25,051 nt of DNA from a virus. The position numbers were made by a program, and so were the translations under genes. The notes under the pieces were generated by a model that made no database searches, was not told where the DNA came from, and was given only the letters and a program-made list of their open reading frames with translations. The stretch spans positions 1 to 25,051 of IMG/VR virus record IMGVR_UViG_3300038338_000007; one strand, given 5' to 3'. Shown in pieces: positions 4,535-21,113 of this stretch; the first letter of the stretch is position 1, and each line of letters starts with the position of its first letter.

Positions 4535-4951
4535 ATGAAACCAAAACAACCAAAACCAAATCCACCCACTGAAGATCAAGAACAGATGCTTCTGGCCGAG
4601 TACCTGAACAACCGGTTTGGGTACCACGGCTGGGTGCATGTGCCAAATCAGAGGTGGGCAAAGGTACATTACCTGAGAAAGCTTAGCAAAATGGGTGTGA
4701 AGAAGGGGTTCCCAGACATACTGATTTTTGGACGGGCTATGATACCATACCCCAAACCATGCAACCGTGGTAAACATCTGGTTGATGGGCTAGCTCTGGA
4801 ACTAAAAAGGCAAAAGGGTAACAGGGCAACTTTAGAGCAAAGAATATGGCTGGCTTGGTTTGGCGAACATAATTGGGCGCAAGCGGTTGCATACGGCGCA
4901 CAAGATGCTATAACAAAGATAGAGGAGGTATACGGAAAATGGACAAAATAA
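4535..4951 (+). CDS. VRR-NUC domain nuclease
   Basis: A 138-residue protein starting directly after the previous stop. It carries the VRR-NUC (PD-(D/E)xK) signature: an acidic N-terminal helix (EDQEQMLLAEYL), KKGFPDILIF with Asp at about 61, LALELKRQKG with Glu 88 and Lys 90, then a Gln (about 101) in the following helix and a last strand with AQAVAYGAQDA. Family members cleave branched or flap DNA; in phages they are stand-alone proteins, often treated as Holliday-junction-resolvase-like. A role in recombination or in resolving replication products before packaging is inferred from SSB nearby. Confidence 0.88.
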   Translation: MKPKQPKPNPPTEDQEQMLLAEYLNNRFGYHGWVHVPNQRWAKVHYLRKLSKMGVKKGFPDILIFGRAMIPYPKPCNRGKHLVDGLALELKRQKGNRATLEQRIWLAWFGEHNWAQAVAYGAQDAITKIEEVYGKWTK

Positions 4952-5142
4952 GAACTGGAGCGATACCAAACTGTCAGTGTCGGGCCAAGGTGGAAGAGTT
5001 AGAGGAGGCCCTACGCTGGTTGGCGTTCCGGGTGTCAGACGCCCTCTGGATCGCCTACGGTGGCAGTGTGGAAGCGTTGTGTATTGGGGCAACGGAACAG
5101 GCTCGTGAGAATATTAATAGGATCAATAACAATAATGAATAA
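4939..5142 (+). CDS. Small helical protein, unknown
   Basis: A 67-residue protein. The ATG at 4939 is chosen because AGGAGG lies about 11 bases upstream and this start gives the 13-base overlap typical of the region. Residues 12-34 (CQCRAKVEELEEALRWLAF) are helical with a coiled-coil look; the C terminus is Asn-rich. Overlaps the lipoprotein start by eight bases. No family recognised. Confidence 0.65.
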   Translation: MDKIRTGAIPNCQCRAKVEELEEALRWLAFRVSDALWIAYGGSVEALCIGATEQARENINRINNNNE

Positions 5143-5602
5143 AAACGCAATAACGTTGATAGTAAGTATTTCGCTATTGTTCGGTGGCTGTGCCGTACCA
5201 ACAGGCGAGGACTATTCCGTAGACTACGAGAATGCTAGAAGGGCGACGATAGAGGCGTGGGAAGAGGTCATCGGGCGGGTGTCAGATAGATGTTACGACA
5301 GGTCGGTAGACGCGATGGTTACCGAGGCCGGCTACTTCCCCGAAAGCTGTATATCACCAACCGGAAACTACGTTGGCTGCTACATGGCGACTGAACACCT
5401 CGGGATAGGGGGCGATATGATATATATACTAGAGACTCGTACGGATAAGCAAAAGCTGGACACCGCGGTCCATGAGTACATCCACTTGTTGGCGACATGC
5501 GAGTTTATTAACCCCGATCCCTTCCATGAAGATAAGCGGTTTTGGGATGACTTCGGGTCCGACACCGTCGAAGCGCACGGGTGTGCGAACCTAAGGCTGT
5601 AG
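5135..5602 (+). CDS. Predicted HExxH metalloprotease-like lipoprotein, copy 1
   Basis: A 155-residue protein. The N terminus is a lipoprotein-type signal: MNKNA, a hydrophobic run, then LLFGG before Cys 19, the predicted lipidated residue. Ala at the next position favours the outer membrane in Gram-negative hosts. HEYIH (113-117) is a zinc metallopeptidase motif, and a His 14 residues after its second His (residue 131, in HEDKRFW) is conserved in the paralogue at 6536, so it could be the third ligand. Four further cysteines are shared (RCYDR, SCIS, GCYM, TCEF), fitting an exported, disulfide-bonded protein. Peptidase activity is inferred. It may act on the host envelope or in superinfection exclusion. 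Ribosome site weak. Confidence 0.85.
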   Translation: MNKNAITLIVSISLLFGGCAVPTGEDYSVDYENARRATIEAWEEVIGRVSDRCYDRSVDAMVTEAGYFPESCISPTGNYVGCYMATEHLGIGGDMIYILETRTDKQKLDTAVHEYIHLLATCEFINPDPFHEDKRFWDDFGSDTVEAHGCANLRL

Positions 5603-5609
5603 GTGCTAA

Positions 5610-5813
5610 GTGAACCATGCTGAATGGCTGCAGTGGTTGATACTAACCATAAGAGCGCACATGAAGCTGGAGTATGGCAACACTGTTCCTCGCAAGGTGT
5701 TGCATGACGCAAGGCGCTATTTGTTGCGTGAGGTAGATGAACTGGACAGAAAACTAGGGAGGAATAGAGATGAAGATAACGAACCAAGCACTAGTAGATG
5801 CGCAGGCGTGTGA
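5610..5813 (+). CDS. 67-residue protein, unknown
   Basis: GTG start with AGGTG four bases upstream, seven bases after the lipoprotein stop. N-terminal half aromatic and hydrophobic (AEWLQWLILTIRAHMKLEY), then a charged helix (LLREVDELDRKLGRNRDEDNE). It may associate with membranes or be a small amphipathic helical protein. It overlaps the first MORN gene by 44 bases in a different frame. No family recognised. Confidence 0.6.
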   Translation: MNHAEWLQWLILTIRAHMKLEYGNTVPRKVLHDARRYLLREVDELDRKLGRNRDEDNEPSTSRCAGV

Positions 5814-6084
5814 GGATCAAGTCGAGCTATTCGAGGCAACGTTTCCGGACGGCGCCACGTGGCCCGACGACATGGAGAAAGCGTCGCGGGCCAAGCTTGA
5901 TGTGCAGTGGGCGATTCGCAAGTTCAAGCTATCGGGTCATTACCGCGAGTGGCACGACAACGGGGAGCTGCGGTGCGACATAACGTACGAGCGCGGCGAG
6001 CTGCACGGTCGTTGCCGCGAGTGGCACGACAACGGGGAGCTGTGGTGCGATGAGATGTGGGAGAACGGGAGGTGGGTGGGATGA
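5770..6084 (+). CDS. MORN/YwqK-repeat protein, two repeats
   Basis: A 104-residue protein. GGGAGGAATAG gives a good ribosome site for the ATG. Residues 1-35 are a short domain with ACEDQVELFEATFPDGATWP, a leader often seen on repeat-containing phage and bacterial proteins. Two MORN_2-type repeats of about 23 residues follow, each with REWHDNGEL and a C-D pair. Such proteins are often labelled YwqK-family antitoxins, but no toxin is apparent, so that label should not be read as function. It is nearly a duplicate of the next gene at DNA level. GC content is clearly higher than in neighbours, suggesting transfer. Confidence 0.85.
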   Translation: MKITNQALVDAQACEDQVELFEATFPDGATWPDDMEKASRAKLDVQWAIRKFKLSGHYREWHDNGELRCDITYERGELHGRCREWHDNGELWCDEMWENGRWVG

Positions 6085-6539
6085 AAATCACGAAGCAAAC
6101 ACTAATAGACGCGAAGGCATGTGAGGATCAAGTCGAGCTATTCGAGGCGACGTTTCCCGATGGCGCCACGTGGCCTGACGATATGGAGAAAGCATCGCGA
6201 ACTGGGCTTGATGTGCCGTGGGCGATTCACAAGTTCAAGCTATCGGGCCGTTACCGCGAGTGGTATACCAACGGGCAACCGTCGCTCGACGAAGCGTACG
6301 AGCGCGGCGAGTTGCACGGTCATTGCCGCAAGTGGCACGCCAACGGGGAGCTGTGGCGCGACGAGATGTGGGAGAACGGGAGGCCACACGGTCGTTTCCG
6401 CGCATGGTACGCCAACGGGGAGCTGCGGTGCGACGCGACGTACGAGCACGGCGCGCGGCACGGTCGTTACCGCGAGTGGCGCGACAACGGGGAGCTGCGG
6501 TGCGACGAGATATGGGAGAACGGGGGGTTGGTGAGATGA
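6081..6539 (+). CDS. MORN/YwqK-repeat protein, four repeats
   Basis: A 152-residue paralogue of the preceding gene, starting on its stop (ATGA) with GGGAGGTGGGTGGG upstream. The N-terminal domain is almost the same (ACEDQVELFEATFPDGATWP), followed by four MORN_2-like repeats (REWYTNGQP, RKWHANGEL, RAWYANGEL, REWRDNGEL) instead of two. Repeat number has therefore changed by internal duplication or loss. Its last codons, WENGG then LVR, provide the ribosome site and ATGA start of the second lipoprotein. Repeat proteins of this kind are usually binding scaffolds; partner unknown. Confidence 0.85.
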   Translation: MKITKQTLIDAKACEDQVELFEATFPDGATWPDDMEKASRTGLDVPWAIHKFKLSGRYREWYTNGQPSLDEAYERGELHGHCRKWHANGELWRDEMWENGRPHGRFRAWYANGELRCDATYEHGARHGRYREWRDNGELRCDEIWENGGLVR

Positions 6540-6991
6540 AGTGGTTGACCATATTCATGTTACTGTCTTTGGGTTGCTACCAAGAGGACTTGTACGAATT
6601 CGTATTAGACTCGTATGACGAAGTGGAGCGCCCGCGATTTGCCGCGGTAGATGCGTGGGAAGAGATGGTCGGTCGTGTTGGTGACGACTGCTACGAGCGC
6701 CTACAGGCGGTTGAGGTGTATCTCGTTAGTGATTTTACAGATGGTTGCACTGTTTTTGAGTATCAGAGTGGCTGTTATCTAAAGCAAGCCAGACAACACG
6801 TTGACTTGATACACGTTTATGACAAGCAGTCTGAGCAGAACAAGGAATATACACTAATACATGAATACATTCATCTGATCCATGCTTGTGAGGAGGGTGG
6901 GTTTGATACGAAACATTTAGACAAGCGGCTGTGGGACCGGTATGCGGGTGATACTGTCGAATCCACAGCAGTAAAGAATCTGGAGTTGTAA
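6536..6991 (+). CDS. Predicted HExxH metalloprotease-like lipoprotein, copy 2
   Basis: A 151-residue paralogue of the lipoprotein at 5135. The ATG at 6536 overlaps the previous stop and begins a signal sequence; the longer in-frame extension reads through the MORN gene in another frame and is not credible. MKWLTIFMLLSLG precedes Cys 14; the lipobox is less regular (Ser at -3). HEYIH (109-113) and the His at 127 (KHLDKRLW) align exactly with copy 1, as do AWEE-GRV-D-CY and four cysteines. Overall divergence is high, so the duplication is old, unlike that of the MORN genes between them. Shared features point to a conserved zinc-binding exported fold. Confidence 0.85.
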   Translation: MKWLTIFMLLSLGCYQEDLYEFVLDSYDEVERPRFAAVDAWEEMVGRVGDDCYERLQAVEVYLVSDFTDGCTVFEYQSGCYLKQARQHVDLIHVYDKQSEQNKEYTLIHEYIHLIHACEEGGFDTKHLDKRLWDRYAGDTVESTAVKNLEL

Positions 6992-7236
6992 TGAGAATCT
7001 ATATTATGGTTTTAATAGTAGCGTTCATCGCGTTGATTTGGTACACGTGTTTGAGTTATGCCGCTCTCCAGGGTAGCCAGGTTGTGGTAATGCTACTTAT
7101 GGCAACGCCGTGGTGCTTTATGGTGTGTTTGTGGACGCATGGCAACGATCAGTACGATGCCGGGTACCGCATTGGACATGCTGCGGGTGTGCTTAAGGCT
7201 TCTCAAAAGGTGGGGGATAACAGTGGTAATCAGTAA
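6991..7236 (+). CDS. Small membrane protein, two predicted segments
   Basis: An 81-residue protein starting on the stop of the lipoprotein (TAATG). Residues 4-25 and about 31-48 are hydrophobic, separated by a short polar turn (ALQGSQ), so two membrane passes are predicted with a soluble C-terminal tail (HGNDQYDAGYRIGHAAG). Linked to the lipoprotein by overlap, so the two may work together at the envelope. Holin-like size, but no endolysin is next to it. Confidence 0.7.
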   Translation: MRIYIMVLIVAFIALIWYTCLSYAALQGSQVVVMLLMATPWCFMVCLWTHGNDQYDAGYRIGHAAGVLKASQKVGDNSGNQ

Positions 7237-7444: not shown

Positions 7445-7726
7445 GTGGGTCGCTGTACCGAGTGTGGGGAGGAAGTGCGGGTGGTAAAAACGCCATATTC
7501 AGAGATTGTCATTGATCCCGCTCCAGATTCCGCCGGAACCGTGTTCTTCATTCGTCGCGTTGCGATAAATTCTCCAAGTCACGCTCGGTATATGCGGAAA
7601 CAGCTTTATCGCGTTCACGCTTGCGCTCAACGATCGGAGCGATTGCGGCTGCGCGAATTAGTGAACGGGAGATCCCGAAAGCAGTGCCCAGTTTTGATGC
7701 GCACCAGAGCCGGTAGGCCCTCATGA
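7445..7726 (+). CDS. Small zinc-finger-like protein, C terminus doubtful
   Basis: GTG start directly after the previous stop, with AGAGGTG upstream. The N-terminal part has the layout of a common phage zinc protein: MGRCTECGEE, a middle with IDPAPDSAGTVFF, and YRVHAC at about 55-60, so CxxC and HxC could bind one metal. After residue 60 the sequence is Arg-rich and unlike the family. From residue 35 on, the DNA is also coding on the minus strand. The natural end may have been replaced by the antisense gene. Confidence 0.6.
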   Translation: MGRCTECGEEVRVVKTPYSEIVIDPAPDSAGTVFFIRRVAINSPSHARYMRKQLYRVHACAQRSERLRLRELVNGRSRKQCPVLMRTRAGRPS

Positions 7727-7862
7727 TTTTAGCCGCTCTTCTGGGTCCGATCTTTTTGCCACCAACGGCCTTAAGCCCCAGTTCCCGCAATACGGCTGCC
7801 AGGGACCAGGGCGAGGTGTTGAGGTATTCGGCAATATCTGCTAAACTGTAACGTACTGCCAT
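7548..7862 (-). CDS. Antisense helix-turn-helix protein
   Basis: The only convincing minus-strand gene here: 104 residues. Residues 6-30 (SLADIAEYLNTSPWSLAAVL) form a clear helix-turn-helix, and GTAFGISRSLIRAA further on may be a second one; the C terminus is highly charged. Codons look natural over the whole length. Its ATG (7862-7860) overlaps the ATG of the plus-strand gene (7861-7863) within CATG, and its 3' end overlaps the preceding gene by 179 bases. No Shine-Dalgarno site upstream. Likely a DNA-binding regulator acquired as a separate unit; a role in its own divergent promoter is inference. Confidence 0.7.
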   Translation of the reverse strand: MAVRYSLADIAEYLNTSPWSLAAVLRELGLKAVGGKKIGPRRAAKIMRAYRLWCASKLGTAFGISRSLIRAAAIAPIVERKRERDKAVSAYTERDLENLSQRDE

Positions 7863-8256
7863 GACTAAAATTAGCAAAAAAAGCAAACAAACGCAACTGG
7901 AACGCATAGATGACAACATGCTTTATGGCAGCCTGAACATTTTAGACGGTGTGTTGGACTTTGCTGATCTAAACCCAGAAGATGAGGAACCCCCTGCCAG
8001 CTGGGTGGAAAGATACGGCGAGGAGGATGCCTGGAAGCGGTTTAGGCTGGCCAGGGTTGGTTGGTTACCATCTAAAAACTTACCCAGCGGTGTGAAGATT
8101 GCATCCACACTGGTTACCGAGGTTCTAAAGGCGAAAATGATGGCCCAGGCAATGAATCGCGATCAAAGAGACCGGCCGCTAAAGAAACCTAAGGTTCAGG
8201 TTGAAGACGTTGAGACAGATGTAGAACAGTTCGGGGAGGTACAGGTTGATGAATAA
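7861..8256 (+). CDS. Candidate terminase small subunit
   Basis: A 131-residue protein with no ribosome site before its ATG; the first in-frame alternative (7918) is not better. The middle, SWVERYGEEDAWKRFRLARV followed by GWLPSKNLPSGVKIA, and the acidic C-terminal tail resemble small proteins found upstream of large terminases in podoviruses, some labelled small terminase. Position, five genes before the large terminase, is compatible but not close. No helix-turn-helix is obvious, which is a point against. The start region was probably changed by the antisense gene next to it. Confidence 0.55.
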   Translation: MTKISKKSKQTQLERIDDNMLYGSLNILDGVLDFADLNPEDEEPPASWVERYGEEDAWKRFRLARVGWLPSKNLPSGVKIASTLVTEVLKAKMMAQAMNRDQRDRPLKKPKVQVEDVETDVEQFGEVQVDE

Positions 8257-9018: not shown

Positions 9019-9401
9019 AAAAGGCACTGCCGGTAGTAAAGCCATCGAAAGACAACCTGGTCGACTATGTGTCGGATTTAGCAGCCGTGGTGCTGGAGAT
9101 TCGCACTGTCTTAAACCGTTTGATCGGCGAGTACGTGTCAACCGACGATGATTACACATGTCTTGAATCAGATTGGATTATACACGTCACCGCGGCAAAA
9201 ACCGTCACTTTACCTAGCTCATATCGTGTTGCAAGGATTGTTACGATCACAAAAAGCACCGGCTATGCTGTTACGGTGGTACCCCAATCTGGCGAAACGA
9301 TAAACGGCGCTGCAAGCAACACTATTATATCCGGCTATTCCACCAAGTCGTTTGTGGCCAATGACGGCGACTGGGAAACCGCTGGTGTAGGAGTTCCGTG
9401 A
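9003..9401 (+). CDS. Fibre-like beta domain protein
   Basis: A 132-residue protein. The first 45 residues are helical (VDYVSDLAAVVLEIRTVLNR), then a repetitive beta domain: DDDYTCLESDWIIHVTAAKT, VTLPSS, IVTITKSTGYAVTVVP, ETINGAASNT and a final W. This layout (a strand, a VTLP turn, a TI-N-GA turn) is common in tail-fibre, tailspike and decoration proteins. It lies directly upstream of the large terminase, an unusual place for a virion surface protein. Overlaps the previous gene by 16 bases and its stop overlaps the terminase GTG. Confidence 0.7.
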   Translation: MERSVKKALPVVKPSKDNLVDYVSDLAAVVLEIRTVLNRLIGEYVSTDDDYTCLESDWIIHVTAAKTVTLPSSYRVARIVTITKSTGYAVTVVPQSGETINGAASNTIISGYSTKSFVANDGDWETAGVGVP

Positions 9402-10912
9402 GGTTTGCAGAGTTCCCGGTTGATCCAGCTATATATACTCCGAGTAAATGGGGTATGCGGTATCACAACTTAGCGACGACTGAAGCGCTTGGTGCCGGCT
9501 CCGCTGGACCTGGTAAGAGCTTAACACTTCTATTAGATCCATTCCTGCAAATTGCCGTGGAAAACGAGCGGTGTAGCAACCGGGATCACCCAAACCGTAT
9601 AAACTGGGGGGAGTCAAAAGGTTGGGCGCTGCACCTAAGGCGCACTAAGCCAAGGTTGTTGCAGACCCTTTCTCGTGCGCATGTTTTGTTTCGCAAAATA
9701 GATCCAGCGGTTGGGTGGAACTCAAAGGATAGCTACTTCACCTTTCGTAGTGGTTATAAAATCCAATTTGGCCACTGCCGTAATCCCGGTGACTGGAGCC
9801 TATACACCTCGCAAGAGTATTCCCACATAGCCATAGACGAGCTTATCGAGTTTATGGAGGAGCAGGTTCATTGGATTATGACCCGGTTGCGCTGTAGTGA
9901 CCCCATCATGGATAGCATGAAGCGGTTTCGCGCGATGACAAACCCAGTCGTGTCCGATGACCTCGGTGGTATCAAGATGGGTGATACCGAATGGGTCCGA
10001 CGAAGGTACGTTGACCCGTTTCCGGACGGCAACAAGGTTCTTAGCAAAACCGAGAAGGCCAAGGACGGGCGGCTGGTGAAGCGTACTCGGATTTATCTGC
10101 CGGCCACCCTGTATGACAACCCTGATCCGGATTTCGTCCGCTCGTACGAGGACGAGCTGCTCCATAAACCCAGGCACATTAGAGAGGCCCTACTATACGG
10201 TAACTGGTACTGGACTATCGGCGGGTTTTACTCAGACGACTGGGATCCAGACCTACACGTGTGCAAGCCGTTCAAAGTACCGGAATACTGGAAAATTTTC
10301 AGGGCGATGGATTGGGGGTTTAGAAACCCCGGTTGTGTGCACTGGTATGCCATGAGCCCGGATGGCCAGCTCTTTCAAATCCGCGAGGTTACATTTCAGG
10401 ACAAAACCGACAAAGAAATGGCCTTGCGAATAAAGGAAATTGACCGAAAAATGGGCTTTGTGAAGGATAATGTTTCTTTGCTTTCCGGCCCGGCAGACAC
10501 ACAGTTGTGGGAAGAGCGCGGTGAATCGGTTTGCAGTAAAGCAGACACCATGGCTTACTACGGGGTGCAGTGGGTCAAGGCAAATAAAAAATCCCGTGGC
10601 AGAAATGCTGAATTGTTACTAAATAGGTTGCGCGATTTAGATAAAGGTGGTAAAAATCCAGGATTCGTGGTATTCAACAATTGTCAGAAGACTATACAAA
10701 TCATTCCATCCGTGAAAACGGATAAAGAAAACCCGAATGTTCCAGCAGATTCCAAAAACGATCACTGGCATGATAACGTGCTGTATGCGTGTGCATATGC
10801 GTCAATGCCAGGAGTTGGTACAAGCCTAAGAAACGTAAGAGAATGGACACGTGTACCAACGGAGGTAGAAGGCAAAGATGGCGACGGATACGGTTACGGT
10901 TTTAGATACTGA
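9398..10912 (+). CDS. Terminase large subunit
   Basis: A 504-residue protein, close to P22 gp2 (about 499). GTG start overlapping the previous stop (GTGA), with TAGGAG upstream. ATPase: Walker A GSAGPGKS at 34-41 and Walker B HIAIDE near residue 145. The LLYGNW element near residue 268 leads into the nuclease: RAMDWGF (Asp near 304), GPADTQLW (Asp near 366), and NDHWHDNVLYA (Asp near 456) supply the acidic residues of an RNase-H-like fold. It pumps DNA through the portal and cuts it. It overlaps the portal gene by 35 bases. Confidence 0.97.
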   Translation: MRFAEFPVDPAIYTPSKWGMRYHNLATTEALGAGSAGPGKSLTLLLDPFLQIAVENERCSNRDHPNRINWGESKGWALHLRRTKPRLLQTLSRAHVLFRKIDPAVGWNSKDSYFTFRSGYKIQFGHCRNPGDWSLYTSQEYSHIAIDELIEFMEEQVHWIMTRLRCSDPIMDSMKRFRAMTNPVVSDDLGGIKMGDTEWVRRRYVDPFPDGNKVLSKTEKAKDGRLVKRTRIYLPATLYDNPDPDFVRSYEDELLHKPRHIREALLYGNWYWTIGGFYSDDWDPDLHVCKPFKVPEYWKIFRAMDWGFRNPGCVHWYAMSPDGQLFQIREVTFQDKTDKEMALRIKEIDRKMGFVKDNVSLLSGPADTQLWEERGESVCSKADTMAYYGVQWVKANKKSRGRNAELLLNRLRDLDKGGKNPGFVVFNNCQKTIQIIPSVKTDKENPNVPADSKNDHWHDNVLYACAYASMPGVGTSLRNVREWTRVPTEVEGKDGDGYGYGFRY

Positions 10913-12914
10913 ACAACCACAAAAACTCGAGTACGACGACAACGCAGATAACCTAGTCGAAATGTTCGCCCAACACCCCGATGGGGTCCAGGCGCTACAA
11001 GACCTGTCGGTGAACATTCTGGAGGATTTTGACGAGGCTTGGTGTTCGGGTGAAAAGGCTCGTAAGCAGCGTAAGCTAGAGTGGGATCTGTTTACCAACG
11101 TTTTGCCAGAACGCAGCAGTAAGTTCAAGGACATGGCTAATGTGTCTCTAACCATTGTGTTGGAGAACATCTCCAGGCTGACCCATCGTGCGGAATCAGA
11201 ACTATTTGGCGACTGGACGAATGTGTTTGGGGTTATGCCAGTCGGACCGGACGACGTGGAGCAGGCCGAACTGCTTAGCTTGCATGGAAATTGGCAACTA
11301 ACGCAAAAAATAATTGACTTCCCCCGACAGATGCAGCGCGGCTTGCTGCACTTCTACCTATTCGGCGATGTGGTCGGTCACAGCTACTTCGATCCAAAGA
11401 CAAAGCGGAACCGGCATGAAATCCTAACGATGGATGATTTCGTTGTGCCGTTTACCGCGGTGTCTACCATGCCGGATTTCTCCGACGTGCCGTATCGCGT
11501 GCGGATTATACGCAAATATCGCCATTCCCTAGAAGCTCAACGCGGCATTTGGTACGGCGTGGATAGGGTTCTCGATGGGCAGATACCCGATTGGGCCGAT
11601 GACCCACAGCCCGAGTTCGCGTTACGCAATGCGGATAAACTTGGATACGACGTAGACGAGCTAATGACAGCGCCGTACATCGTATTACAGTACGAGGGGT
11701 GGTGTTCGCTACCCAACCAAAGGCGAGAGCGCTTTATTCAAGCGTTTGTCGATTACAAAACCGGCGGGATGCTGGGGCTAAGTATTCATGAAGAGGCCCC
11801 GTGGGAAGAGAATATCCGATTCGAAACCCAACGCCGTGAGCTTGATATGTACAGGGATCAGTACCAACAGCATCAAGCAATTACATCTCAACTCGAGTTT
11901 CAAAAGCAACTGATATCGGATCGCGCGGATGCTGGAGAACTCGAAGAGGGCGATGTCGGTATGGCCGAGCTTACTGGGCCTGAAGCTCAGCCACCACCCG
12001 CGCCTTCCTGGATGAAGAACCCGTCAGATATGGAGGAAGAGCCATCGCCAAAAAAGAGCCAGCCTATACACATGTTCAGTCACGCTGTGTGTATCGAGTC
12101 TCTTACCGGTGTTAGCGGGATTGGCTATGGTCGGATTGTAACCGCGTACAACATCGCTGCAAATATTCTTTTGTGCCAGTATATTGATACGGCCAGCCTG
12201 GCAAACTGTCCCACGATGATCACAACTGATCTAGTGCGTTGGAAAAGCCCGTTTAAGATTGGCCCTGCTCAAGTCAACACTGTCAGCGGAATATACGGCT
12301 CTGACCTGAAGGCAAACATCATGCCGTTTACGCCGGGGCAAGCAAATCCACAGATGAAGGAACTTGTGGAGATGTTTATCGCAGCCGGCCAATCGGCGAT
12401 TCAATCTCCCGACGTGTTATCTGGTGAGCCTGGTAAAAGCGGTGAGACCTTCCGCGGTATTGCTACCAGGGTAGAGCAGGCTACCAAGCAGCTTAGCGTA
12501 ACCACTCGCTCCTATGCCCGTTTTGTTCAGCAAATGCTAAAGAATAACGCTCGCCTCAATGCAATCTACATGGATGACATCGAGATTTTCATGGTGAATG
12601 ACCATAAGAACGGTCAGACCACGAAGCGCATTGACAAGCGCCTGTACGAGCGCGACTATTCAACCACTATTCGGTCTGATTTAAAGTACACCAGCCAAGC
12701 CCAAAAGCTAGAGCAGGCACAAAGGGTGCTAGACATGGCGATACAGAACCCCTATCTTTTGCAGAATGCATCGTTTCAATACCAAGCGCTCAAGAATTAC
12801 TTTGAAGCCCTTGGAACCCCGGAGCTAATCGCACAGCTTGGCCCAGCCCCACCACAGCAACAACAGCCCATGAGTTTACCGCAGCCGGAACCCCAACAGC
12901 AACAAATGCAATAA
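10878..12914 (+). CDS. Portal protein, P22-like
   Basis: A 678-residue protein, near the size of the P22 portal (about 725). It follows the terminase with a 35-base overlap and has GGAGG upstream. The N-terminal region is helical and acidic; the centre has long strands (VVPFTAVSTMPDF; PYRVRIIRKYR), and an insertion with charged coil (about 320-390). A Gly-Glu-Thr-Arg segment (SGETFRGIATRVEQATKQL) precedes the long pore helix region, as in P22-type portals. The C terminus is a Pro/Gln-rich tail. It forms the ring through which DNA enters. Confidence 0.93.
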   Translation: MATDTVTVLDTEQPQKLEYDDNADNLVEMFAQHPDGVQALQDLSVNILEDFDEAWCSGEKARKQRKLEWDLFTNVLPERSSKFKDMANVSLTIVLENISRLTHRAESELFGDWTNVFGVMPVGPDDVEQAELLSLHGNWQLTQKIIDFPRQMQRGLLHFYLFGDVVGHSYFDPKTKRNRHEILTMDDFVVPFTAVSTMPDFSDVPYRVRIIRKYRHSLEAQRGIWYGVDRVLDGQIPDWADDPQPEFALRNADKLGYDVDELMTAPYIVLQYEGWCSLPNQRRERFIQAFVDYKTGGMLGLSIHEEAPWEENIRFETQRRELDMYRDQYQQHQAITSQLEFQKQLISDRADAGELEEGDVGMAELTGPEAQPPPAPSWMKNPSDMEEEPSPKKSQPIHMFSHAVCIESLTGVSGIGYGRIVTAYNIAANILLCQYIDTASLANCPTMITTDLVRWKSPFKIGPAQVNTVSGIYGSDLKANIMPFTPGQANPQMKELVEMFIAAGQSAIQSPDVLSGEPGKSGETFRGIATRVEQATKQLSVTTRSYARFVQQMLKNNARLNAIYMDDIEIFMVNDHKNGQTTKRIDKRLYERDYSTTIRSDLKYTSQAQKLEQAQRVLDMAIQNPYLLQNASFQYQALKNYFEALGTPELIAQLGPAPPQQQQPMSLPQPEPQQQQMQ

Positions 12915-15956: not shown

Positions 15957-16871
15957 ATGGCAGACCTAGTTATGAGAAGTACCGAAGCTACCTCGCTCGA
16001 AGTGATGCTGAACAAAGTCATCGACGACAAAGAGCGACCGGGAAAAATGTACTACAACAAGTGGCTCAAAGAAGAGTCTGGTTCAGGCGGACAGATCGAT
16101 GATCTAGAAACCTACGGACCTGGCCTTGCTTTTGAGGTTCCGGAAGGTACTGACCTACCGACCGCTACCATGGGTGAGCACACGCGTTTCCGGTACATCC
16201 CGGTGAAGTACGGCGTTATTCTTCAGATTACCGAAGAAGCGTTGGAAGACAACAAGCACCCGCAAGTGCTACGATTAGCTCAACGAACCAAGCGTGCGAT
16301 TATGAAGACCATCGAGGTTGTATCTCATGATCTACTAAACCGCATGTTCAACACGAGTTATCCGATTGGTGACGGACTGCCCCTGGGCTCCGCGTCACAC
16401 ACCTTGGGTAATGCGGGTACGTTTAGCAACTACATGGCAGCTCCACAGCTTTCGCCGTCGATTACGGCTCTTGAGCGTGCGCTAAGTGACATCACCGCGA
16501 TGGTGGGACACGATGGTGAGATCGAGGGTTACAACGGCAAGCGAGTTGTTTGTCCGCATGGGCAAAAGTTCGCATGGAAGCAGGTATTGAAGTCCGGTCA
16601 GTCTCCCGAGACCTATCAAGGCATCAACGCTGTATCCGCTGCTGAAACCGGCCTAGAGGCCGAGCCTGTCGCGACTCCATTCTGGAACGCTTCGACTACC
16701 AACTGGTGTATTCAGACCGACGCTGACAACCCTGCAAAAATCTACTTCTGGCGTAGACCCCGCGGTCGAGCCTGGAGAGAAGAGGGTCCGCAAGTCATGC
16801 GTTATTCTACCGACACTCGGTTTGTTGTTGGCTGTAGCGATGCGAGGGCTTTCTACTGCGTGGAGGCATAA
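15957..16871 (+). CDS. Major capsid protein
   Basis: A 304-residue protein with GGAG six bases before the ATG. It has the pattern of HK97-fold coat proteins without a long N-terminal scaffold domain: an N-terminal arm, a PVKYGVILQITEEALEDNK strand-helix unit, a long helix (QRTKRAIMKTIEVVSHDLLN), GSASHTLGNAGTFSN near 142-156, and a C-terminal beta-rich domain with WRRPRGRAW and YSTDTRFVVGCSDARAFY. It lies after scaffold and decoration genes and before the adaptor gene. It is shorter than P22 coat (430), probably lacking an insertion domain. Confidence 0.92.
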   Translation: MADLVMRSTEATSLEVMLNKVIDDKERPGKMYYNKWLKEESGSGGQIDDLETYGPGLAFEVPEGTDLPTATMGEHTRFRYIPVKYGVILQITEEALEDNKHPQVLRLAQRTKRAIMKTIEVVSHDLLNRMFNTSYPIGDGLPLGSASHTLGNAGTFSNYMAAPQLSPSITALERALSDITAMVGHDGEIEGYNGKRVVCPHGQKFAWKQVLKSGQSPETYQGINAVSAAETGLEAEPVATPFWNASTTNWCIQTDADNPAKIYFWRRPRGRAWREEGPQVMRYSTDTRFVVGCSDARAFYCVEA

Positions 16872-17801
16872 ATGGCTACCAACACTTTTATGAACGCAAT
16901 GCAAAGTTCGCTTTATAATCGGTATGGGATAACCATTCCGCCAACGGCGCACGTAGCGGCGTTTCTACACGCAGATGGTGTTCGAGATGGTGATGACTCT
17001 TTCATTAAGAACAACACCGTTAAGACGCTCAACAAAGCATTAGCGCGCTGTAAGTCTGACAGACAGGACTATATTTTTGCTCTTCCGGGGCACACGGAAA
17101 ACGTGGCTTCGGCAGATGCGATGGATAGCCTTGTTGCCGGCACTCAAATCGTTGGTATCGGTGATGGCGCTGGTCGCCCCGCCTTTACCTGGTCTGCGGC
17201 TGCCTCTACATTCTTGTTCGACGTGGCTAATGTTGGGTTGCACAACTGTATCCTAAACCTGGAACCAGGTACGGGAACCGTTACAGTGGCAGCTCCGATT
17301 ACCGTGTCTGGCGCCGGGTGTGCAATAACCGGGTGTTTGATGCGGTTTTCCACTGACGCGAACAACAAGGTAACGCAGGGTTTCACTGTAACTGGTGATG
17401 ATTTCCGTTTCGAAAACAATATTTGTTACGGAGCCACCGCGGGTGAGTGCACAGCGTTTATGGATCTCAACGCTGCACATCGTGCGGTTCTCATTGGCAA
17501 CTATATCGCCGGTGCGACCTCGAACGTAGCGGTGGGATTAGTACGCTTCGTTACCGCCGCCTCTCTGAACGTGTATTTGAAGGACAACGTCTATATCAAC
17601 CGAAAAGCCTTGAGCACCTGTTGTGTGACGGGGTTGGCGGCTGTATCTGGCATTTCCATCAACGAATCGTTCAACTACCTAGACACCGCTTCGTTGACCC
17701 CATGGTTGACGAGCACTGGTATTATGCACTTTCATCGACCGAGTGTAACAAACACGGCTGGTGAAACCGGTTCTGAAGTAGTCGGCACCGTATCTGCATA
17801 A
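16872..17801 (+). CDS. Right-handed beta-helix protein after the capsid gene
   Basis: A 309-residue protein starting on the base after the capsid stop, with GGAGG upstream. The N-terminal 35 residues are polar; the rest shows the repeating short strands, G, N, V, I and T of parallel beta-helices (QIVGIGDG; GLHNCILNLE; GCAITGCLMRF; FRFENNICYG; AVLIGNYIAG). VKTLNKALARCKSDRQDYIF and GHTENV in the first part match a similar order in the beta-helix protein at 18607, so the two are paralogues. Position suggests a head fibre or surface spike. Confidence 0.8.
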   Translation: MATNTFMNAMQSSLYNRYGITIPPTAHVAAFLHADGVRDGDDSFIKNNTVKTLNKALARCKSDRQDYIFALPGHTENVASADAMDSLVAGTQIVGIGDGAGRPAFTWSAAASTFLFDVANVGLHNCILNLEPGTGTVTVAAPITVSGAGCAITGCLMRFSTDANNKVTQGFTVTGDDFRFENNICYGATAGECTAFMDLNAAHRAVLIGNYIAGATSNVAVGLVRFVTAASLNVYLKDNVYINRKALSTCCVTGLAAVSGISINESFNYLDTASLTPWLTSTGIMHFHRPSVTNTAGETGSEVVGTVSA

Positions 17802-17813
17802 TCCTCCCACGCT

Positions 17814-17841
17814 CTGTGACTTCGGGTTTCCGGGGTCACAG
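17814..17841 (+). terminator. Stable intergenic hairpin, no T tract
   Basis: CTGTGACTTCGG (17814-17825) pairs with CCGGGGTCACAG (17830-17841), 12 pairs with two G-T, around a GTTT loop. There is no T tract, so it is more likely a stability or processing element that protects the abundant capsid mRNA, or it affects the ribosome site of the next gene (GGGATGG directly after it). Confidence 0.5.
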
Positions 17842-17856
17842 GGATGGTTATAAAAC

Positions 17857-18597
17857 ATGACGATATCCGATAATCGCGGAACCGAGAAGACCATCGATCA
17901 GATCGTCTTGACGGCATATGTACAGGCCGGGCTGGTAAATGACCAGCAAAGGCTAAACCCCCCACAGTGGGCTGATAAGCTTGCGGTTGGGCGTGACTAT
18001 CTAAACAGTATCGTGAATAGCCTGCAGGTTGAGGGCGTGCCTATCCGGTCACAGGTGCTGTACAACCTGTCTATTGAAGCTGATATCAAGCAATATGCAT
18101 TGCCGAGTTATGTTCTAGATGTTGTCGGTGATGCGGTTTTCCAGGATTCGTCTTCAACACTTCTAGAGGCTCAAGAAGAGTATTTGGTTCAGCCGGCTAC
18201 CATGGCTCAATGGCAGGTATTCCCCGACAAGAGCAGCTCCAGCACTCCGGAATACTACATGTTGTATAAGTCGTATTCGCCGATGAACCTCTTTTTATGG
18301 CCCATTCCAGATGAGAACGGTTATCTACGGCTACAAGTCCAAAGACTTTCCGCGGATTCAACCACCGGAACTAACACGGTGGATCTCGGCGTAACGTGGA
18401 CGGAATACCTAGAATGGCGGCTGGCGTTCAGACTAGCGATGTCCAACTCGTTGCCAGCGGATAAATGCCAAATGCTCAACGCGGAAGCCAAGGGGATAAA
18501 AACAAAGCTACTGCAAAAGTCCAATGAGACTGCGGTGGAGCCACTAAGCTTTATGCACTCAACGCCATGGAGCGGATACAGGAATACCATTGACTAG
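17857..18597 (+). CDS. Head-to-tail adaptor, P22 gp4-like
   Basis: A 246-residue protein. Its first half is helical with the adaptor pattern TIDQIVLTAYVQAGLVNDQQ, WADKLAVGRDYLNSIVNSLQ and VEGVP; then strands with LPSYVLDVVGDAVF. Known members attach to the portal and make the tail-binding platform. The order adaptor, beta-helix proteins, gp10-like protein in the next genes agrees with P22. It is longer than P22 gp4 (166). Weak ribosome site (GGGATGG about ten bases away) next to a hairpin. Confidence 0.8.
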   Translation: MTISDNRGTEKTIDQIVLTAYVQAGLVNDQQRLNPPQWADKLAVGRDYLNSIVNSLQVEGVPIRSQVLYNLSIEADIKQYALPSYVLDVVGDAVFQDSSSTLLEAQEEYLVQPATMAQWQVFPDKSSSSTPEYYMLYKSYSPMNLFLWPIPDENGYLRLQVQRLSADSTTGTNTVDLGVTWTEYLEWRLAFRLAMSNSLPADKCQMLNAEAKGIKTKLLQKSNETAVEPLSFMHSTPWSGYRNTID

Positions 18598-18606
18598 GAA
18601 TAAACA

Positions 18607-19455
18607 ATGTCGATTATACATCTACCAAACGGCATAGGGGAAACACTAGGGGATTCTTTAGCAACCACAAGCCCATTAGAAGTAAACGGCAACGTTTGGT
18701 ATGTGCACTATGGGACCGGAACAGACGCGGTGTCACCCGCTGGCCAGAGCCGACAGGCCCCGTTGAAAACCTTTGACCAGGCCAATACCAATGCGGCAAG
18801 TGGGGATGTTGTCGTGCTTATGGATGGACATGAGGAAACGATTGCGGCTACGATTACAGTTAGCAAAGATCTCACCGTCATAGGCGCTGGTTCGAGTGGT
18901 GGGCTTCCAACTGTAAAGCTTACCAATAATCAGGCAGCAGGTCAGATGCTTAGTATAACGGCGCAAAACTATGCGCAGTTTAGAAATATTTGGTTTGAAG
19001 AGGAGCTCCAGGCGAACTCGGCGGCCAAGCTGGTTCTATCTTCTGCGTTTTCCACGGGAGACGTGATATTCACCGGATGTTACTTCCAGTGTGGGCAATA
19101 CGACGATGACTATGCTGTGGAAATAACCCAGGGGTCGTCCGTTGTGTTTAAAAACACTACATTCATCTCAACAGCCACTTCCATCGCAACGCAACCGTAT
19201 GCTGCGATTGGAACCGTTTCCGGCTCAACGCTACACGCGGTTGTGCTCGACGGTGCGGTTATAGATGGTGGCACATACGGCTGGTCTAAGTACCACGCGG
19301 TGGACCTGGTGGACCAGCAACCTACGATGGTTATAGGCGAAAGCGTATCACTACTTCGCGGATCGGATGTGAGGATACATTCGAGCGCGGTGGGATACTT
19401 TAACGCATCTACTCAATCCGGCGGGTGTCGGATAGATTGGGATGGGGTTACTTAA
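18607..19455 (+). CDS. Beta-helix protein, paralogue of the one at 16872
   Basis: A 282-residue protein with AGGA upstream. After a polar N terminus it begins VWYVHYGTGTD, then APLKTFDQANTNAASGDVVV with DGHEETI, TVIGAGSSGG and further short strands, as in parallel beta-helix proteins. The order of landmarks (TL-A, GD, GH-E, IGAG-G-P) matches the protein at 16872, so they are distant paralogues. Its stop overlaps the tailspike start (TAATG). Likely part of a tail-fibre or spike complex, or a chaperone-like partner. Confidence 0.75.
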   Translation: MSIIHLPNGIGETLGDSLATTSPLEVNGNVWYVHYGTGTDAVSPAGQSRQAPLKTFDQANTNAASGDVVVLMDGHEETIAATITVSKDLTVIGAGSSGGLPTVKLTNNQAAGQMLSITAQNYAQFRNIWFEEELQANSAAKLVLSSAFSTGDVIFTGCYFQCGQYDDDYAVEITQGSSVVFKNTTFISTATSIATQPYAAIGTVSGSTLHAVVLDGAVIDGGTYGWSKYHAVDLVDQQPTMVIGESVSLLRGSDVRIHSSAVGYFNASTQSGGCRIDWDGVT

Positions 19456-21113
19456 TGCAGCTTGTATCAACGCTTGCATGTGGTGTAAATGGTGCCGGTA
19501 GCGGTACCGCGGAAATCTATGTTCGTGGAACAGCGACTCGCGCAACGTATTACACCGGTTACGATGGTTCCGGAGCGGTCGCGACCGGCGCGGATGTAAC
19601 ACTGGACACAAACGGTGGCGCAACCGTTTACGTAAATCAAAGCGTAGACGTAATAGTAAAAAGTTTCGCTGGAAGTCAAGTGCGGGCATTCACCGAGATG
19701 GTGGGTGCGCCTATCGTGGAATACTCCGGGGTGAGTTTTACCGGGACAGACTACACCACTGGGGCATCTGCCACGAGTAAGCCGATCACACTACAGGAGG
19801 TGCTGAATCTCTGGAACACAAGTGCGGGATCAATCGATTTTAACGTATTACTAGAGGGTTCATCGACCACAATCCAGGCTGCGCTGGGCACGGTTTCAGG
19901 GTTGTTTTTCAACGTAAAAAGCTCAGCCTACGGTGCCGTGGGTGATGGAACCACAGACGACACCACCGCTATTACAGCTGCTATAACCGCGGCGACTGCG
20001 AGTGGTGGAATTGTGTTCTTTCCAGCGGGAACCTATCGGGTTACAACTTCTCTTAGCCTTCCAGCAAACGTGTCTCTATTGGGATTGGGGCCAGAAAACA
20101 CGTTTATAACCATGGACCACGCTAGCAACAACCTACTGGTGTTATCCGGTGGTAGCAACGGTGGATTCCAATATGTAAAGGGAATAGCCTTTTCCGCGGC
20201 CCAGTCGTACACCGGGTTGCTTTTATACGGTGCTACAGCTGAAACATTCGCCACCTTCCAGCAGTGCTCATTTGGTGGCACCAACACAGCCGACACCATC
20301 ATAAGCATCGACATAGACCACGCGGTCGTTAGGTTCGATGACTGCTTTTTCCATCCCGAGGAAATCCCAGACACCGACCATGCGATATATATCGGATCAA
20401 GCGGAACCGACGAGGACATGGCGTGGTACTCGTTTACTGGTTGTAGATTTCAGTTTTCAGCAACCCAGACCGCGGTGACCTGCGACATGATACGAGCTGA
20501 GTCGTGCTTTATATCTGGTTGCCGTTTCGATTCCTCCCTAATGACCACCGCAGCCACCCTAACGTTTATAGATTGTTACGGCACGGCGGTTTCGGATATT
20601 CAGTCTGTCACTATTACGGGAAACTACTTCATCGGTAGCGCCACCGCAACGGTTCAAGGGCTAGATCTAGGGTCCGCCAACATAAATGTATACGAAGCGG
20701 GAAACCACTTTTCCGATGATATGACATTATACGGAGCTGGAGAAGAGACGGCGGGTGGATTCGTTCATTATGGCTCGAGGGAAAATAGGAACATAGACCT
20801 TGGAACGGATAATTCAGCTACGATACGCCTTAACACCATGGACTACGGATCGATACACATCACAAGATCTGATGCAACGGCGCTTACGCTTACCGCCGAT
20901 CTCATGCCACTGGGGTCTTGGTTTACAATCGTAATTCATAATTCCAATAGCGGGGCTGCCACCGGTAATATAACCCTTTCATCTGATGATTTCGCAGAAA
21001 GTACAGGTGTGTTTACCGTTGCTGCCAGTTCACACCGGATTCTTACATTTCGAATGGCCTACCTGTTCGGACCATATAAGTGGGGCGAGGTGGAAATAAC
21101 CGGGAATATCTAA
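19455..21113 (+). CDS. Tailspike-like protein with pectate-lyase motif
   Basis: A 552-residue protein. Residues 1-75 form a small beta domain (MQLVSTLACGVNGAG, then TAEIYVRGTATRATYY, ADVTLDTNGGATVYVN) found at the N terminus of many marine-type phage spikes, probably for attachment to the tail. At 153-175 comes the Pectate_lyase_3 signature AYGAVGDGTTDDTTAI, followed by about 270 residues of beta-helix turns. The last part, after about 440, is a strand-rich domain. A depolymerase for host capsule or O-antigen is the likely role; catalytic residues cannot be assigned. Its stop overlaps the next start. Confidence 0.85.
   Translation: MQLVSTLACGVNGAGSGTAEIYVRGTATRATYYTGYDGSGAVATGADVTLDTNGGATVYVNQSVDVIVKSFAGSQVRAFTEMVGAPIVEYSGVSFTGTDYTTGASATSKPITLQEVLNLWNTSAGSIDFNVLLEGSSTTIQAALGTVSGLFFNVKSSAYGAVGDGTTDDTTAITAAITAATASGGIVFFPAGTYRVTTSLSLPANVSLLGLGPENTFITMDHASNNLLVLSGGSNGGFQYVKGIAFSAAQSYTGLLLYGATAETFATFQQCSFGGTNTADTIISIDIDHAVVRFDDCFFHPEEIPDTDHAIYIGSSGTDEDMAWYSFTGCRFQFSATQTAVTCDMIRAESCFISGCRFDSSLMTTAATLTFIDCYGTAVSDIQSVTITGNYFIGSATATVQGLDLGSANINVYEAGNHFSDDMTLYGAGEETAGGFVHYGSRENRNIDLGTDNSATIRLNTMDYGSIHITRSDATALTLTADLMPLGSWFTIVIHNSNSGAATGNITLSSDDFAESTGVFTVAASSHRILTFRMAYLFGPYKWGEVEITGNI

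Follow-up and report, generated by a model that had tools for sequence, protein, structure and literature searches.

Two genes for related predicted lipoproteins, each with an HExxH motif, lie on either side of a pair of MORN-repeat genes in a virus contig. This arrangement raises the question of what such lipoproteins are, what they might do for a phage, and whether they and the MORN genes belong together. The window, i.e. the whole stretch of DNA analysed, covers positions 1-25,051 of IMGVR_UViG_3300038338_000007, a 25,051-base virus contig from IMG/VR. Judging from its terminase, portal, capsid and pectate-lyase-like spike genes, the contig is that of a tailed phage of a little-sampled group. 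It also encodes an SSB protein and a VRR-NUC protein, and its portal matches one annotated phage only, with 24.5% identity. Among 310 Myxococcota genomes, one holds a distant portal homologue (L126, G292 C649:961-2670; 25% identity), which is a weak hint on the host range of this phage group.

The lipoprotein pair and its surroundings

The positions of the genes and motifs discussed are given in Table 1. The 2 lipoproteins are 35% identical over the whole length (BLASTP E 5e-27). They have in common HEYIHL, HxDKRxWD, four cysteines besides the lipobox cysteine, and a C-terminal DTVE segment, and in both the third His stands 14 residues past the second His of HExxH. The residues named in the preliminary description (HEYIH, the His at +14, the four shared cysteines, and the triads H113/H117/H131 and H109/H113/H127) are thus all correct. 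The window has two copies of the motif HExxH-x13-HxDKxxW, and none of 100 shuffles has any. Lipoboxes were assigned by eye and by pattern, and lipidation is less certain for lipoprotein 2, since its predicted lipobox cysteine at residue 14 leaves a stretch that is short for a signal peptide.

Table 1. Features of the window referred to in the text.
Feature	Position	Strand	Remarks
Small ORF, 67 aa	4939..5142	+	Adjoins lipoprotein 1, same accessory block
Lipoprotein 1, 155 aa	5135..5602	+	Predicted signal peptide, lipobox LFGG-C19; HEYIH 113-117, H131, D133, W137; C53, C72, C82, C122
HExxH-x13-HxDKxxW metal-site motif, lipoprotein 1	5471..5545	+	
Small conserved phage gene, 67 aa	5610..5813	+	Between lipoprotein 1 and the MORN pair
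MORN protein 1, 104 aa	5770..6084	+	N-terminal domain of ~55 aa and ~2 MORN_2 repeats
MORN protein 2, 152 aa	6081..6539	+	Same N-terminal domain and ~4 MORN_2 repeats
Lipoprotein 2, 151 aa	6536..6991	+	Short predicted signal peptide, Cys14; HEYIH 109-113, H127, D129, W133; C52, C71, C80, C118
HExxH-x13-HxDKxxW metal-site motif, lipoprotein 2	6860..6934	+	
Small predicted membrane protein, 81 aa	6991..7236	+	Directly after lipoprotein 2
Terminase large subunit	9398-10912		
SU10-type portal	10878-12914		
Capsid protein	15957-16871		

As for the MORN proteins, the second scores above the Pfam MORN_2 cut-off (43.8 bits vs 29.6, E 1.2e-11) and the first just below it (26.6 bits vs 29.6, E 5e-6). 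They are 79% identical at the protein level and 86% at the nucleotide level, and their N-terminal parts show a synonymous divergence of ~0.48 with dN of 0.07. The duplication described earlier as recent is therefore real and, by these divergence values, younger than that of the lipoproteins, yet not very recent, because synonymous divergence has reached 0.48 at 86% nucleotide identity. The higher GC content noted for the MORN pair is also borne out (0.61-0.62 vs 0.47-0.52 for the lipoproteins) and comes mainly from the repeats (0.65-0.67). Three phage records and 50 of the 310 Myxococcota genomes contain distant MORN relatives of these proteins. For the N-terminal domain, phages gave no significant match.

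The relative closest to the window phage is L003 (80% identity in the terminase, 78% in the portal). It is a 14.6 kb fragment and the sole relative that covers the insertion site. Its gene order is SSB, VRR-NUC and the homologues of the genes at 5610, 7214 and 7445. The homologue of gene 5610-5813 lies at L003:1424-1597 (phmmer E 2e-6, 34% identity in the alignment). L003 lacks any counterpart of the window blocks 4939-5609 and about 5814-7213, and the genes next to them are conserved there. Neither lipoprotein nor MORN relatives are detectable in 45 loci related by portal, of which 42 have a terminase match and many are fragments that stop short of the lipoprotein region. HExxH ORFs were found in these 45 relatives; nearly all of them look non-coding, and none matches the lipoprotein family. 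The fixed-spacing motif has 0 matches in viral contigs.

Since the blocks are absent from relatives and L003 keeps both the flanking and the middle genes, the comparison identifies the lipoproteins as accessory, in two separate blocks on either side of the conserved gene 5610-5813. Absence from close relatives between conserved flanks is also the pattern used to recognise a moron. With one informative relative, both gain in the window phage and loss in L003 fit. The small ORF at 4939..5142 has no family match, and the small membrane protein encoded at 6991..7236 has no homologue in the phage relatives examined. Promoter and terminator sites around the genes are no more frequent than in shuffles.

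Several other features of the contig were recorded. On the minus strand, opposite the plus-strand genes, an ORF at 7548-7919 with a helix-turn-helix-like region may encode a regulator, and by eye it is kept in L003 (1950-2525, minus) and L044 (5069-5425, minus). At 2026-2426, two successive short ORFs have nearly identical ends (LNDCKCYEPEGAE and LNDCKCYEPEEAE), and the DNA 3' of both is alike, which suggests a local duplication. The region 16872-21113 holds three long ORFs similar in style (starting at 16872, 18607 and 19425). The one at 19425 matches a pectate-lyase-like tail spike, and the three may be related spike or appendage proteins. Unrelated predicted lipoproteins are encoded upstream of the terminase in L071 (2220-2519) and L058 (3638-4549), members of the same phage group, in which this region may often hold envelope cargo.

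Relatives of the lipoproteins in Myxococcota

When the lipoproteins were used directly as queries, singly or together, nothing matched in phages, plasmids, IMG/VR or GTDB. The cut-off is reached by no catalogued family (NCBIfam included), and a sequence profile search of the PDB yields no meaningful match. Relatives were found by scanning about 85,000 GTDB genomes for the pattern HEx[hydrophobic]H-x13-HxDxx[hydrophobic]W. Among the 20 stretches obtained, translation left four proteins of one family (L004, L007, L017 and L019), and the other stretches, which are short, antisense or in unrelated frames, were dropped. Two of the four are labelled Myxococcales, one Sandaracinaceae and one only 'Proteobacteria', the last being very similar to the other three. 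All four are predicted to be lipoproteins, and their cysteines are those of the phage pair.

Aligned by hhalign against these four proteins, the window pair has a probability of 96.5 (E 8.7e-10, 122 columns). As the motif scan itself selected for the metal motif, so that motif conservation among the four is not independent, the comparison was repeated without it. For the part between the signal peptide and HExxH alone, the score is 25.5, vs at most 17.6 in 60 column shuffles. Run by hmmsearch against every ORF of the window and of 45 phage loci, a Myxococcota-only profile finds the two window lipoprotein ORFs at 5e-10 and 1e-5 and has no other significant match. The column-shuffle comparison is the cleaner test, because three of the members in this profile were themselves recovered by means of the window proteins. 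These three (L028, L034 and L036) were added by a search of Myxococcota genomes with joint profiles containing the window proteins, and they keep HExxH, the His-to-Trp pattern and the cysteines. HExxH is thus kept, not lost, in all seven Myxococcota relatives.

The invariant columns of the family are W42, C53, C72, C82, H113, E114, H117, C122, D128, H131 and W137, and the Glu of HExxH is the same in all nine sequences. Similar to the phage pair, the Myxococcota proteins have a lipobox (the start being uncertain in L028), a conserved AW helix, the four cysteines and HExxH, with D-x2-H-x-D-x3-W in most. In contrast to the phage pair, they are slightly longer and have a different C-terminus, the DTVE segment being missing from most. 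Unlike the phage copies, members are chromosomal where checked: L004 (6655-7275) and L017 (2325-2876) lie beside a glutaredoxin/rhodanese gene and an SDR gene. Neither neighbourhood shows a sign of phage genes, and no MORN gene is evident alongside. The family is rare in Myxococcota: 318 genomes of the class yielded only a few clear members.

Full-length profile similarity, HExxH, the third His, the Trp and the four cysteines were all found in the phage lipoproteins, which on these comparisons are taken as divergent members of a genuine, unnamed and uncatalogued Myxococcota lipoprotein family. The weak class-wide matches L037-L043 were set aside: L037 is larger and has the motif by chance, L040 and L042 match the same short stretch as L037, and L038, L039, L041 and L043 have no matching ORF. 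The string EAWEE in a 99-aa lipoprotein of L071 is regarded as coincidence, as this protein has neither HExxH nor a profile match.

Predicted fold and metal site

AlphaFold models built from seven-sequence alignments have pLDDT of 78.9 for lipoprotein 1 and 76.0 for lipoprotein 2 (pTM 0.74 for both), with pLDDT near 90 around the HExxH helix. The order of elements is a helix, a short helix, three strands, the long HExxH helix and a C-terminal helix, and the models are consistent with a minimal zincin topology, as in small zincins. The upper ranks of the fold searches are mostly occupied by zincins, namely selecase, IrrE/PprI, SPRTN and phage SprT/IrrE proteins, all matches being below significance (best E 0.02-0.09).

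Regarding known metallopeptidase families, the pair reaches the Pfam cut-off of neither SprT-like proteins nor Peptidase_M78. For SprT-like proteins (PF10263), lipoprotein 2 scores 17.1 bits vs a cut-off of 25.6 (E 0.005), lipoprotein 1 has no match, and profile comparison with real SprT domains gives a probability of 4 only. The SprT-like hallmark of HExxH with a distal third His is present in the lipoproteins at a spacing of 14, and SprT-like/SPRTN proteins resemble them in having this His ~13-15 residues past HExxH, an aromatic residue soon after and a small zincin topology. However, SprT proteins are cytoplasmic and are not known to have the lipobox or the four cysteines. For Peptidase_M78/IrrE (PF06114), lipoprotein 2 scores 13.7 bits vs a cut-off of 22 (E 0.054) and lipoprotein 1 has no match. 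The strand and HExxH helix of IrrE/M78 align with those of the lipoproteins (hhalign probability 72 over 51 columns only), and IrrE is the top fold match of lipoprotein 2, albeit below significance. IrrE/M78 proteins, however, have no lipoprotein signal, and IrrE takes its third metal ligand from a later helix, a Glu in place of which the phage lipoproteins have the conserved His. Selecase and the minigluzincins share the minimal zincin size and include the top fold match of lipoprotein 1 (E 0.09), but they are not lipoproteins and have no sequence match. Lipoprotein 2 also matches the phrog_87 metallo-protease weakly (E 0.004).

The third His is conserved, and the Myxococcota members have no conserved Glu at the position it takes in IrrE; both facts favour a three-His metal site, as proposed in the preliminary description. 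The earlier proposal of exported zinc-binding paralogues is well supported by these predictions, given the HExxH, third His and cysteines of the seven Myxococcota relatives and the zincin-like predicted fold.

Possible roles in the infected cell

The best explanation, to which we give roughly an even chance, is that the proteins are accessory membrane-anchored metallopeptidases of the zincin type, probably derived from a myxobacterium-like host, that act on the cell envelope. The outer two genes would be moron-like cargo of a tailed phage, and each product a small, lipid-anchored zincin stabilised by disulphides, with a metal, presumably zinc, held by HExxH and the His 14 residues later. The phage would have acquired the genes from a myxobacterium-like host or its relatives, which is probable because the family is carried on Myxococcota chromosomes. 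After export by the Sec/Lsp route, the lipoproteins might be retained on the inner or outer membrane, where they may act on a protein of the infected cell's envelope, either cutting it or binding to it. Phage receptors and other exposed proteins of the envelope would be natural targets, and superinfection exclusion or receptor processing the most natural benefit.

A further-reaching version of this explanation appears unlikely. It treats the pair as a new class of phage lipid-anchored metallopeptidases, drawn from a Myxococcota surface-protein family, that remodel the envelope of infected or lysogenic cells, the two diverged copies having different targets. Such remodelling could serve receptor processing, superinfection exclusion, or kin or prey interaction. 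That moron genes can alter the properties of a host is well established in general (e.g. PMC7067206). A literature search returned no described HExxH phage lipoprotein and no MORN-lipoprotein phage system.

Among the alternatives, the lipoproteins might be anchored in the envelope and exclude superinfecting phages without any cleavage: they would bind a receptor or a protein of the incoming phage, and the metal site would be structural. The predicted lipobox and the disulphide-type cysteines suit a surface binder. Receptor-blocking phage lipoproteins are known: T5 Llp and TP-J34 Ltp are likewise small, phage-encoded and accessory in distribution, although they are not known as HExxH proteins and act by binding. 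A purely structural site, however, has no need of the catalytic Glu, whose invariance in the nine sequences makes this reading rather improbable.

A cytoplasmic or DNA-linked role similar to that of SprT, SPRTN or IrrE (repair or anti-defence), with an N-terminus that merely resembles a signal peptide, would agree with the weak SprT-like, M78 and phrog_87 matches of lipoprotein 2 and with the presence of SPRTN and IrrE among the fold matches. We regard it as very unlikely, since nearly all members, including those of Myxococcota, have the lipobox and the four cysteines, the SprT profile probability is as low as given above, and all Pfam scores are below cut-off. As for lysis, a lipoprotein and the small membrane protein encoded directly after lipoprotein 2 might work together on the outer membrane when infection ends, and lipoproteins are common in spanin pairs. 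Nevertheless, no endolysin or recognisable holin was identified nearby, both genes are absent from relatives, which must also lyse, and no HExxH is known in spanin lipoproteins, all of which makes a lytic function highly improbable.

Finally, there is little to commend the maintained module of lipoprotein, MORN, MORN and lipoprotein suggested in the preliminary description. The four genes are adjacent on one strand, and the ATGA overlap of MORN gene 2 with lipoprotein gene 2 suggests translational coupling. The outer genes do flank the MORN pair as stated, but an overlooked fifth gene, the conserved and unrelated phage gene 5610-5813, interrupts the layout. Co-occurrence of the four genes elsewhere, which had been set beforehand as the test, was not found in viral collections or in the 45 portal relatives. 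In the L003 fragment both blocks are gone and the middle gene is kept, and family members L004 and L017 have no evident MORN neighbour. A single co-inherited functional module is thus scarcely credible, and the MORN pair, tied to the lipoproteins by position and the ATGA overlap only, is regarded as separate cargo.

Returning to the reading of the pair as accessory envelope zincins, the analysis points to a family of small zincin lipoproteins, probably exported and so far uncatalogued, that Myxococcota chromosomes and a phage have in common. The family is also a hint as to which host this group of uncultured phages may infect. Most known envelope modifiers encoded by phages either bind their targets or alter glycans, and a proteolytic mechanism would join these if the lipoproteins do have enzyme activity.
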